Shown piece by piece: positions 371-9,315 of a stretch of 32,523 bases of DNA. The notes below the pieces were generated by a model. The model had not been told where the DNA came from, did no database searches, and worked only from the letters and a program-made list of their open reading frames with translations. This DNA comes from Candidatus Zixiibacteriota bacterium (lineage in GTDB: Bacteria > Zixibacteria > MSB-5A5 > GN15 > FEB-12). The stretch lies in contig JAQUSF010000026.1 in assembly GCA_028715215.1 (NCBI GenBank), positions 1 through 32,523 of the forward strand, written 5' to 3'. Positions within the stretch are counted from its first letter, which is position 1, and every line of letters begins with the position of its first letter. The translations under genes and the position numbers were made by a program.

Positions 371-3300
371 TCACTTCTCAATCAACTTCACATCCAGACC
401 CAGAGCCTGAAGTTCCTTGATAAGGACATTGAAGGCTTCCGGGTAACCCGGTTCGGGTGGATTTTCACCCTTGACGATGGCTTCATAAACGCGGCTGCGA
501 CCGGTAACGTCGTCGGATTTAACCGTCAGCATTTCCTGCAGGGTATAAGCCGCGCCGTAAGCCTCCAGCGCCCAGACTTCCATCTCCCCGAAGCGCTGAC
601 CGCCGAACTGAGCTTTACCGCCCAGCGGCTGTTGCGTAACCAGCGAATACGGGCCGATAGAACGGGCATGGATCTTGTCGTCCACCAGATGTGATAGTTT
701 CAACATATATATATAACCGACGGTAACCGGGTTATCGAAAGGCGTTCCGGTAAGACCGTCATAAAGGGTAATCTTGCCGCTTTCAGGAAGACCGGCCTGG
801 TTGAGTTTCTTTTTAATGTCCCCAACCGAGGCGCCGTCGAATACCGGCGTGGCGACATATTCATTCAGGCGCCGTGCTGCCCAGCCCAGGTGGGTTTCCA
901 TTATCTGACCGATATTCATACGCGATGGAACCCCGAGGGGATTCAAAATGATATCGATCGGCGTACCATCTTCCATATAAGGCATGTCCTCGACGGGAAC
1001 GACTTTGGAAACCACGCCCTTGTTGCCATGGCGGCCGGCCATCTTATCGCCCACGGAAATCTTGCGGCGAATGGCTATCGTCACCTTGACCAGTTGCTTG
1101 ACGCCGGGCGGAAGTTCCGCACCGCGCTGTACTTTATCAATCTCAATTTCCATTTCGCTTTTTTTGGCTTCGATGAGCTCCACCGCTTCGGCTATGATAT
1201 TTCCCACATGCTTGTTGATGTTTTCATCGTTGCAGTACCCATCGGGTGCCACCGCGTTGTCAACATCGAACTCGTCGAAGAAACCGGCTTTTAATTTATG
1301 ACCGGAACGAATCAGCACGGAATTATCAGCCAGGGAACGAATCGCTCGCGAGGTTTGCCCGTCGAGAAGTTCATTAAGTTTCTGATTACGCAGGCTGGAA
1401 ATATCCATTATTTTCTTATTGAACTTCTTTTTCAAAAGGGCAATCTCGGTTTTTTCCTTCTTTTTAGCTTCTTCAGTTCTTTCCTTACGGGAAAAAACCC
1501 GGGTTTTAATGACGACACCCTTCATGCCGGGCGGCGCTTTCAAAGAAGCATCGCGCACATCGCCGGCTTTCTCCCCGAAAATAGCCCGCAGAAGACGTTC
1601 CTCGGGCGAAAGCTCGGTCTCGCCCTTGGGAGTAACCTTGCCAACCAGAATATCCCCGGCCTCCACCTCGGCACCAATACGGATAATACCCCGCTCGTCC
1701 AGGTTCAAGAGCGCTTCCTCGGAAACATTGGGAATTTCACGCGTTATTTCTTCGGCCCCGCGCTTGGTATCACGCACCTGAAGTTCGTATTCTTCGATAT
1801 GAATCGAGGTGAAAATATCCCTATGCACCAGGCGTTCGGAAAGAATAATGGCATCTTCAAAGTTATAACCGCGCCAGGGCATAAAGGCAACCAGAGTGTT
1901 ATTGCCCAGCGCCAGCTCGCCCCGGTCAACAGCCGGACCGTCGGCGATAATCTGATTTTCAACGACCTTATCCTCTTCTTTAACCACCGGGCGATAATTC
2001 ACACAGGTGTCCTGGTTGGAGCGGGCGAATTTAATCAAGTTGTATTCCCGGTCTTCGACATAGCCCAATTTTCCGACCCGCTGTTTTATTTCAGGTCGAA
2101 TAATTATTTTTTGATTGTCAACATAAACAACGGTTCCCGCTTCGCGGGCTTTGACCACCACCCCGGCGTCAACCGCCACCTTACGCTCCATACCGGTACC
2201 GATGAGCGGTGCTTCAGTCTTCAAAAGAGGTACCGCCTGGCGTTGCATGTTGGAACCCATCAGGGCACGGTTGGCGTCATCATGTTCAAGAAAAGGGATC
2301 AGGGAAGCCGCTACCGACACGATCTGTCGCGGCGAAACATCCATATACTGAACTTCCTCCGCCTTCACAACCGGATAATCGGAACGGCGCCTGGTTATTA
2401 CCATTTCATTTACAAAACGCCCGTTTTTATCCAGAGGCTCATTGGCCTGAGCGATAAAATACCTGTCCTCGGCGTCAGCCGAGAGATAGACCACCTGGTC
2501 GGTCACTCTTCCCTTTTCCACTTTGCGATACGGGGTCTCCAGAAAACCGTAACGGTTGATGCGGGCATAAGTAGCCAGTGAGGTAATCAGACCGATATTG
2601 GGACCTTCCGGCGTTTCAATCGGGCACATCCGGCCATAATGCGTGTGATGAACGTCACGAACTTCAAAACCGGCTCTTTCACGGGTCAAACCGCCGGGTC
2701 CCAGAGCTGACAACCTTCGTTTATTGGTCAACTCCGACAGCGGGTTGGTCTGGTCCATAAACTGGGACAACTGGGAGGAACCGAAGAAAGTCTCCACCAC
2801 CGAAGACACGGTGCGGGCATTGACCAACAATTGCGGCGTCAGGTTCTCCTGGTCTTTCAGGGATAACCTTTCACGGATAGTACGGGCAACCCTTGACAGA
2901 CCCACGGAAAACAGGTTGGACAACAACTCACCCACCGTGCGGGCGCGCCGGTTACCCAGATGGTCGATATCGTCGGTATAGCCGATATCGTTTCGCAAAC
3001 CGATCAGGTAACGGGTAATGGCAATAAAATCCCTGACGTCAAAAATAGTCTTATCCAGCGGAATATCCAGCCCCATCCGCTGATTTATCATATATCGACC
3101 CACTTCACCGAGGTCATAGCGTTTGTTGTTGAACAGCATTTTATCAAGGAAGGATTCGGCCATTTCCAGCGTCGGCGGTTCGCCCGGTCGCAACATCGAA
3201 TAGACCTTAATAAGAGCTTCCTCGCGGGACTTGGTAGCATCCTTTTTAAGAGTGTTGAGAACCACGTAAGCTTCGCGCTTTTCATCACGGGTAATTATCT

Positions 3301-4147
3301 TGAGGGACTTGCATTTATTATTCAGAAGTTTTTCGATAACGGTTTCGCTTAACTCCTCGCCGACCGGGAAAAGAATCTCACCGGTTTCCCGGTCAACAAT
3401 CGTCTCCGCCAGAAAGGAACCTTCGATACCATCGGCCCCCTTACCCGTCAGATTGACCTTTTTAATGTGTTCCTCATAAAAAAGGTTAACCAGTTCTTCG
3501 TCGGTGGAATAGCCGACACAGCGGAAAAGGGTGGTCAGAGGAATTTTTTTCTTGGAGTCCAGGTAAACGTAAAGGATATCATTGACATCCATGCCGAATT
3601 CAACCCAGCTGCCCCGATAGGGAATAACGCGGGCGGAATATAACTTTTTACCGTTGGGATGAATGACTTCGTCGAAAAACACCCCGGGGCTGCGATGGAG
3701 CTGACTGACAATCACTCTTTCCGCACCGTTAATAATAAACGTTCCCCACTCGGTAATGAGGGGCAGTTCGCCCAGATAGACATCCTGTTCGATGATATCC
3801 TTGACTTCCTTCTGCTTGCCTTCGCCCTGGCGGGTAACCAGACGCATGGTCACTTTCAGGGGAGCGGCATAAGTCATGTTTCGTTCCCGGCACTCTTCAA
3901 TCGAGTATCGTTTGGGACCGAGATGATAACCGAGATACTCCAGGGAGTAGTTTTCATGAATATCGGTTACGGGAAAGATATCCATGAAAATCTGATGCAG
4001 CCCTTTCTTTTCGCGTTTATTGACGGGTACTTGCGCCTGCAGAAAATCTTCGTATGATTGCAGCTGCACTTCAAGTAAATTGGGCATTTCCACGGCGTCC
4101 GGAATAGACGCGTAACTTATCCTTGTTAACTCACCAATTCGGGTCAA
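371..4147 (-). CDS. rpoB: RNA polymerase subunit beta
   Basis: This is the full-length 1258-residue beta subunit, the catalytic half of bacterial RNA polymerase. The rifampicin-pocket segment (about residues 456-490) reads [16 protein letters not shown] and is followed by the conserved [14 protein letters not shown]-type block; the C-terminal [12 protein letters not shown] and [13 protein letters not shown] motifs are intact. Asn475 occupies the place of E. coli His526, and Thr467 that of Asn518. The start is TTG at 4145-4147, with GGAGG 8 bases upstream; no ATG is better placed. The 245-base gap from rplL holds competing hairpins that may set the ratio of polymerase to ribosomal protein expression. 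rpoC follows. Confidence 0.98.
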
Positions 4148-6679: not shown

Positions 6680-7222
6680 TCATGTTTTGCTTTTTACTAA
6701 TTCCACCTGAAGAAAATCAAGTTCCACCGGGGTGGGACGTCCGAATATCGAAACCATGACCTTGACTTTCCGCCGTTCCATATTGATTTCGCTGATGGTC
6801 CCTGAAAAATCCATGAAGGGACCATCCTTGACCTTGACCGGGTCCCCCGCCTGGAAAGGAACATCCGTGCTCTCTTCTGTCCGGCTGCGGTCAATCTGCC
6901 CGACAATGCGTTTGAGTTCGGACTCTTTCAAGGGCGCGGGTTTCCCCCCGGCACCCACAAAATTGGTAATCCCCGGTGTGGAGACCACCAGATTCTGGGT
7001 TTCCTTGTCCAGTTCCATCTCGATGAGAATGTAACTGGGCAGAAACTTTTTGGTCGAAGTGGAGCGTTTGCCCTGCTTCATCTCCGTCACCTGTTCGGTC
7101 GGGACAAGAATCTGGCCGAATTTACTCTGTAAACCGGTATTGGCGATAGCCGATTCAAGATACTTTTTAGCTTTCTGCTCATGCCCGGAATAAGTATGGG
7201 CAACGTACCAGCGTAACGTCAC
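6680..7222 (-). CDS. nusG: Transcription termination/antitermination factor NusG
   Basis: NusG binds the RNA polymerase clamp, increases processivity and couples transcription to translation or Rho. The NGN domain (about 1-115) starts with RWYVAHTYSGHEQKAKKYLE, and a KOW domain (about 125-178) carries FQAGDPVKVKDGPFMDFSGT. Length is 180 residues, normal. The GTG start follows directly on the secE stop codon (TAA-GTG), and its ribosome binding site GGGAGG is encoded by the last glycine codons of secE, so the two are probably translationally coupled. Confidence 0.97.
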   Translation of the reverse strand: MTLRWYVAHTYSGHEQKAKKYLESAIANTGLQSKFGQILVPTEQVTEMKQGKRSTSTKKFLPSYILIEMELDKETQNLVVSTPGITNFVGAGGKPAPLKESELKRIVGQIDRSRTEESTDVPFQAGDPVKVKDGPFMDFSGTISEINMERRKVKVMVSIFGRPTPVELDFLQVELVKSKT

Positions 7223-7446: not shown

Positions 7447-7519
7447 CAGGCCAGGAGGGATTCGAACCCCCAGCATCCGGTTTTGGAGACCGGCGCTCTA
7501 CCGTTGGAGCTACTGGCCT
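7447..7519 (-). tRNA. tRNA-Trp (anticodon CCA)
   Basis: The cloverleaf is complete on the minus strand: acceptor AGGCCAG/CTGGCCT, D-stem GCTC/GAGC, anticodon stem CCGGT/ACCGG with loop CTCCAAA (anticodon CCA), and T-loop TTCGAAT. The discriminator base is G, as expected for tRNA-Trp. The 3' CCA is not encoded. It lies 8 bases after the rpmG stop and 20 bases before secE, so it must be cut out of an mRNA. Confidence 0.97.
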
Positions 7520-7714: not shown

Positions 7715-8920
<1,206 letters not shown>

Positions 8921-8949
8921 CGCCTGGGTCTTCCTCCAAATTTATAAAG

Positions 8950-9022
8950 AGCCCAGAACCAGGATTGAACTGGTGACCTCATCCTTACCAAGGATGTGCT
9001 CTACCAACTGAGCTATCTGGGC
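8950..9022 (-). tRNA. tRNA-Thr (anticodon GGT)
   Basis: The cloverleaf is complete: acceptor GCCCAGA/TCTGGGC, D-stem GCTC/GAGC, anticodon stem CATCC/GGATG with loop TTGGTAA (anticodon GGT), T-stem ACCAG/CTGGT and discriminator T. CCA is not encoded. It lies directly upstream of tuf, as thrT does before tufB in E. coli. Confidence 0.97.
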
Positions 9023-9040: not shown

Positions 9041-9075
9041 AAAAAAAATTCAAAAAAAAGGCGCACTTCGCCTTT
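9041..9075 (-). terminator. Terminator-like hairpin in the leader of the tRNA-Thr/tuf operon
   Basis: On the minus strand a 7-bp stem AAAGGCG/CGCCTTT with a 5-base loop (9057-9075) is followed by eight T residues (9052-9059), then after GAA by a second run of eight. This is a good intrinsic terminator facing the operon. It begins only about 7 bases after the predicted transcription start of the promoter at 9089-9116 and lies 30 bases before tRNA-Thr. It could end lipoprotein-gene transcripts or act as an attenuator. Both uses are inferred. Confidence 0.65.
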
Positions 9076-9088
9076 CAAGTAAGCCCTT

Positions 9089-9116
9089 AATATATTGCCG
9101 AGCAACATTATGTCAA
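9089..9116 (-). promoter_or_regulatory. Promoter for tRNA-Thr/tuf/ribosomal/rpo operon
   Basis: A perfect -35 TTGACA (9111-9116) is separated by 16 bases from TATATT (9089-9094). The -35 is embedded in TGGCTTGACA, identical in sequence and spacing to the rplM promoter at 25669-25696. Predicted start of transcription is near 9082, about 60 bases before the tRNA. No other good promoter was seen closer to the tRNA. Confidence 0.7.
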
Positions 9117-9118
9117 GC

Positions 9119-9138
9119 CATTTTTAAACATAAAAATG
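9119..9138. repeat. AT-rich inverted repeat just upstream of the tRNA-Thr/tuf -35
   Basis: Perfect 8-base arms CATTTTTA and TAAAAATG are separated by 4 bases and end 2 bases upstream of the -35 element. It could be an operator or an UP-element-like AT-rich stretch. An AT-rich inverted repeat also lies upstream of the rplM promoter. Beyond this, the 293 bases at 9023-9315 contain AT-rich sequence with weak dyads and no gene. Confidence 0.5.
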
Positions 9139-9315
9139 ACTTTAAAAAAAAGGCCTAATCTTTTTTTCGACAAACCGCCCTATTAATTAATGAGGGTTTG
9201 TGCAAAAATTATACATTTTAATAAAAAATAAATGAATTAAACAGCAATTTGAAAATAATAGTCGTATATTTATAACTGCTTGAACAATAACAATATAATA
9301 TTTTTATGGCTGCTC

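Follow-up and report, generated by a model that had tools for sequence, protein, structure and literature searches.

A conserved terminator-shaped hairpin as a candidate promoter-proximal attenuator of the tRNA-Thr-tuf-nusG-rpoB operon in Zixibacteria

Results

The window, i.e., the whole stretch of 32,523 nucleotides analyzed here, was assigned to Zixibacteria because the closest named relatives of its tuf gene belong to Candidatus Zixiibacteriota. Its minus strand carries an operon that is led by tRNA-Thr (ggt; positions 8949 to 9022) and continues with tuf, encoding EF-Tu (7715 to 8920), tRNA-Trp (cca; 7447 to 7519), nusG (6680 to 7222), the genes of ribosomal proteins L11, L1, L10, and L7/L12 (4393 to 6653), and rpoB, which lies inside the window (371 to 4147). 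At the leader of tuf, Rfam gave no match above the gathering score, and the three tRNAs were the sole matches. Upstream of the operon and on the same strand lies a lipoprotein gene (9978 to 9316), which ends 200 bp before the tuf promoter. Between the two, an inverted repeat CAAACC..GGTTTG (9171 to 9200) and, further down, GGCC-T8 (to about 9145) were noticed; together they possibly form a separate terminator of the lipoprotein gene.

Ahead of tRNA-Thr, the minus strand reads TTGACA TAATGTTGCTCGGCAA TATATT AAGGGC TTACTTG AAAGGCG AAGTG CGCCTTT TTTTT GAATTTTTTTTAAAAGAATTTGTTGAACGG. An earlier note on this DNA had described a TTGACA-16-TATATT promoter with a 7-bp hairpin and a T8 tract before tRNA-Thr/tuf, and we confirmed this arrangement at the positions it gave. 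The -35 hexamer TTGACA (9111 to 9116) and, after a 16-nt spacer, the -10 hexamer TATATT (9089 to 9094) were read from the sequence and recovered by a scan for promoters. With 11 of 12 hexamer matches they make up the best sigma-70-type site between 5000 and 13000. Just upstream of the -35 is an A-rich block, ttTAAAAATGGC (9117 to 9128), which is UP-element-like and presumably acts as such. The -10 is followed by a GC-rich discriminator, AAGGGC (9083 to 9088), recognized in the alignment of relatives.

The terminator-shaped hairpin (9057 to 9075) begins 13 bases past the -10 and pairs AAAGGCG (9075 to 9069) with CGCCTTT (9063 to 9057) around the loop AAGTG, giving a stem of 7 bp to which one G-U pair more (9076/9056) can be added. 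Three T's of the T8 tract (9059 to 9052) are also paired within the stem. A stem of 7 to 8 bp, four GC pairs, and T8 directly after are the form of an intrinsic terminator, and the scan scored the hairpin and its tract as one. The folded leader RNA reached -9.9 kcal/mol (z = -2.43), and 3 of 200 shuffled sequences were equally stable. Transcription is predicted to start at about 9082 (the 7th base after the -10) and the hairpin follows about 7 bases on, so that a terminated RNA would measure about 29 to 31 nt, with the T8 tract as the predicted 3' end of this ~30-nt product. Reiterative G-addition, which reportedly occurs at Bacillus pyrG, was rejected, since the GGG lies 3 to 5 nt after the -10 and is too near to be the start.

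Terminator-like sites were not in excess in the scanned region (8 observed versus 10.2 ± 3.4 in shuffles). A single site of this kind is therefore within chance in an AT-rich region, and the case rests on conservation. That the element is a chance terminator-like sequence in AT-rich DNA, as the lack of an excess would allow, is contradicted by the phylum-wide conservation and covariation given below, and we consider it extremely unlikely.

A tRNA-Thr pattern matched 60 of 132 genomes of the phylum, and the leaders of these loci were read. This layout of promoter and hairpin recurred in about 60 relatives, which represent many families of the phylum. Nearly all tuf leaders show an A-rich block (recurring as aaaaa-n3-TTGACA), TTGAC(A/T), a TATATT-like -10, a start region GG(G)Y(T/C), whose GG(G)Y core recurs at the position of the discriminator, and a short hairpin, which most commonly takes the form RGGCG-n4/5-YGCCY. 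The spacer between -35 and -10 is 16 nt in 48 of the 59 tuf leaders compared. Absence of both elements was specifically looked for in close relatives, and promoter and hairpin are present there. No paper on Zixibacterial leaders surfaced in the literature.

The T-run is more variable than the hairpin. At least five T's (T5 to T9) were counted in 29 of 59 tuf leaders, usually starting ~30 nt past the -10, and about half of the leaders are without such a run. Runs of 7 to 8 persist in the GC-rich genomes G008 (61% GC) and G028 (56%); the GC-rich lineages f19 (a class-level family), G010, G029, and G124 have the hairpin but no U-run. Within 60 nt of the -10, strict terminator-like sites occur in 20 of the 59 tuf leaders, compared to 4.3 ± 1.9 (maximum, 11) in shuffles, and the control stretch of 60 nt upstream of the -35 holds such sites in only 3 of the same leaders. 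Furthermore, one long hairpin with T8 in its loop is possible in the leaders of G036, G018, G023, and G008 (L121, L122, L124, and L136), and its stems in G008 and G023 differ in a compensating way.

RNAalifold found the hairpin unprompted in a MAFFT alignment of the tuf leaders, which was made earlier and is free of the structure-fitting bias of the CM alignment. Among 48 distinct leaders, 78.6% of cells were paired versus 70.0% in shuffles, and 25 cells were changed on both sides versus 11.1, a number that none of 500 shuffles reached; two-sided changes were seen at all six hairpin pairs of the CM-fitted alignment, and these counts lean towards the hairpin because that alignment was fitted to structure. 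When partners were slid out of register as a control, pairing was at most 58%, compared to the 78.6% in register. The conserved promoter-hairpin arrangement is real and broader than first noted. Searching with CM R1 yielded one strong match in the genome of the window (61 bits; next, 23.7) and no second strong copy. In relatives there was as a rule also one strong match, the tuf leader, and most weak matches fell on tRNA or ribosomal protein gene promoters that no terminator follows.

Since the lipoprotein gene shares the strand of the operon and stops shortly before its promoter, polymerases reading out of it would meet the hairpin, which might then terminate that gene and overlap the tuf promoter as an accident of close gene packing. 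Yet relatives keep promoter and hairpin at a fixed spacing although what lies upstream differs. Across 54 genomes, the nearest large ORF on that side represents 29 families, and in 13 of the 54 it points the opposite way (ORFs were called mechanically, so that single cases may be wrong, while the diversity is clear). This argues against lipoprotein gene termination as the conserved role, and we regard this explanation as very unlikely; an incidental role of this kind is possible in this genome. The earlier note had offered two readings, attenuation through a ~30-base RNA and an embedded lipoprotein terminator. The former has gained from the fixed spacing, the covariation, and the parallel at rrn described below, and the latter has lost ground with the varying upstream gene.

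A riboswitch-like switch would need two exclusive pairings within 30 nt, an antiterminator CTCGCC:GGCGAG and the terminator GGCG..CGCC-Un, with start-site choice or a bound factor as the trigger. Family f4, G010, and G028 could form either pairing (L147 to L155, L162, L126, and L127). The antiterminator arm is, however, nearly invariant in f4, so that covariation support is absent, and it is missing in the genome of the window (G000) and in f2; no antiterminator hairpin is visible in the tuf leader of this genome. We therefore rejected a classical attenuator with a covariation-backed alternative hairpin, and a regulated switch of this kind appears very unlikely.

The rrn operon shows the same layout. 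Its leader in this genome (L226, G000:C61, about 1990 to 2063, minus strand) reads TTGACA-17-TATACT-CAGAA-TCTGCC-aggcaatatgtca-GGCAGA-TTTTTTTT-CGGATAAGA-GTTCTTTGACAACT, so that TCTGCC..GGCAGA-T8 stands between the promoter and boxA. The hairpin at the principal rrn promoters of Zixibacteria starts near +1, and T6 to T8 stands between hairpin and boxA in 22 of 29 parsed leaders, namely that of this genome and 28 others. Terminator-like sites were detected in 14 of the 29 rrn leaders compared to 1.5 (maximum, 5) in shuffles, a count that was lowered by a wrong automatic choice of promoter in three loci. As boxA lies past the T-run, its order in the leader argues that boxA-bound factors could not rescue a polymerase there. 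L226 also has a second, upstream rrn promoter (TTGACAAACGGGC...), directly after which stands a 10-bp inverted repeat, ACGATAATAA..TTATTATCGT.

Unlike the rrn leaders, in which boxA follows the hairpin, none of the 60 tuf leaders contains the boxA core TCTTTGA/TCTTTAA, and TCTTTGG was found in 2 of 60. This core search ruled out antitermination at a boxA in the leader of tuf, and for lack of boxA the nut-like rrn leader (boxB-boxA-boxC) was rejected for it as well.

Beyond the Zixibacteria, start site and boxA of E. coli rrnB P2 are separated by a hairpin, GCCGC..GCGGC, that no U-run follows. By eye, several rrn leaders of Gemmatimonadota show a hairpin directly after the -10, again without a U-run, and L304, a leader from the phylum of the Calditrichaeota locus L039 (inferred from the title of L039), has a hairpin with a partial U-run. 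Across the rrn leaders from Gemmatimonadota and the phylum of L039 (L301 to L327), a hairpin often starts immediately past the -10, and in most cases no U-run comes with it. Given these occurrences, the hairpin is an ancient component of rrn leaders; the U-run that gives it the shape of a terminator is typical of Zixibacteria among the leaders examined. In 29 tuf loci of other phyla with upstream tRNAs, no clear sequence of promoter, hairpin, and T-run was noticed by eye.

These leaders bear on the possibility that the hairpin is a boxB-like leader element of stable-RNA transcripts, i.e., a pause hairpin, an assembly site, or a shield of the 5' end, with a U-run that tunes pausing and with little or no termination. 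Such a role would fit the U-run-free hairpin between start site and boxA in E. coli rrnB P2 and several Gemmatimonadota, the Zixibacterial lineages that keep the hairpin without a T-run, and the fact that rrn boxB is without a known partner (PMC10250234). It is hard to reconcile with a T-run placed right after the stem, T6 to T8 in rrn and T5 or more in tuf leaders at the frequencies given above, unless transcripts are released there; the retention of the U-run in some GC-rich genomes and the missing boxA of the tuf leaders also speak against it. We regard a boxB-like element as a rather unlikely alternative.

Discussion

The explanation that we favor, with modest confidence, is a promoter-proximal attenuator in the leader of the tRNA-Thr-tuf-nusG-ribosomal protein-rpoB operon. 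Across the leaders, the terminator-shaped hairpin keeps its place downstream of the promoter and ahead of the operon's first gene, which is the location of an attenuator of the GraL type. In the proposed scheme, whose start site, termination event, efficiency, and regulation we infer from sequence, RNA polymerase would start at about 9082 from a strong, stringent-type promoter and transcribe the hairpin and U-run. Some polymerases would halt ~30 nt in, setting free a very short RNA, and the remaining ones would continue into tRNA-Thr, tuf, and the downstream genes. The passing fraction would probably be set by the early elongation complex, through NusA, NusG, Gre factors, ppGpp, or NTP supply, and expression of NusG and RNA polymerase could thereby be coupled back to termination itself. 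NusA and NusG stimulate intrinsic termination in B. subtilis (PMC8060035), and since nusG is a gene of this operon, feedback through NusG is plausible by analogy.

A conserved hairpin after both the rrn and the tuf-nusG-rpoB promoters suggests that genes of the growth machinery are throttled ~30 bases past the start, and because the rrn operon is laid out alike, a single throttle would serve both the stable-RNA and the tuf-rpoB promoters across the phylum. Where the hairpin stands without a U-run (f19, G010, G029, and G124), it would have another or additional role, or attenuation would have been lost; the hairpin may also act in a boxB-like manner.

Pausing and attenuation in the rrnB leader were reportedly observed in vitro by Kingston and Chamberlin in 1981, and the arrangement proposed here is similar in that elongation would be controlled early in a rrn leader. 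A close precedent for the tuf leader is the greA/GraL leader of E. coli, in which a terminator ahead of a transcription factor gene yields short RNAs of 37 to 59 nt and about one third of the polymerases read through (PMC6829880). Both have a strong promoter with a terminator-shaped hairpin and U-run within tens of bases. In contrast to greA/GraL, the predicted product is shorter (~30 nt), the operons are rrn and tRNA-tuf-nusG-rpoB, and the arrangement is conserved across the phylum; a sequence relation is not claimed. The Zixibacterial rrn leaders also resemble the nut-like boxB-boxA leader of E. coli rrn P2 (PMC10250234) in the hairpin between start site and boxA, but the E. coli hairpin is without a U-run, whereas most of those in Zixibacteria end in T6 to T8. 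The rimP-leader, which is a conserved terminator preceding nusA and has been taken as a factor-dependent attenuator (PMC2965389), shares with the tuf leader a short conserved GC hairpin with a U-stretch, no visible antiterminator, and a position ahead of a termination-factor operon. It differs in its operon (nusA-infB rather than nusG-rpoB) and in a hairpin deeper in the 5' untranslated region rather than at about +7, and the Zixibacterial stem varies in sequence between families. Identity with the rimP-leader (GGGc..gCCC before rimP-nusA-infB) was rejected on the operon, tRNA-Thr-tuf-nusG-rpoB, and on the stem, AAAGGCG..CGCCTTT.

In the usual view, initiation determines how much rrn and rpoB are transcribed, and boxA then shields their transcription from termination. 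A terminator ahead of boxA and of tuf-rpoB would mean that polymerases are stopped or let through at about +30 in the operons with the heaviest transcription. It could also account for the puzzling rrn "boxB" hairpin that persists without a U-run in other bacteria. We tentatively propose, as a conjecture that we hold to be doubtful, that the output of rrn and tRNA-tuf-nusG-rpoB is set at a shared termination checkpoint ~30 nt in, with read-through that depends on NusG/NusA or on ppGpp. If so, growth rate would be controlled at early termination, beyond initiation alone, and NusG and RNA polymerase would exert feedback on this step.

In this genome, ~14 distinct promoter-plus-T6 sites were found, and a GC hairpin, judged by reading, precedes the T-run only at tuf, rrn, and pth-rpsF. 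At the last of these (L287:351-415; G000:C135:16250-16313), the promoter is followed by GCCTGACCTTTTGTCAGGC-CATTATTTTTT directly before a pth-like and then a rpsF-like gene, both named from reading their translations. Another promoter-immediate terminator-like site was seen in L288 (G039:C1:76851-76792, minus strand), where the promoter is followed by CCCTGC-CGAAA-GCAGGG, T6, and tRNA-Asn.
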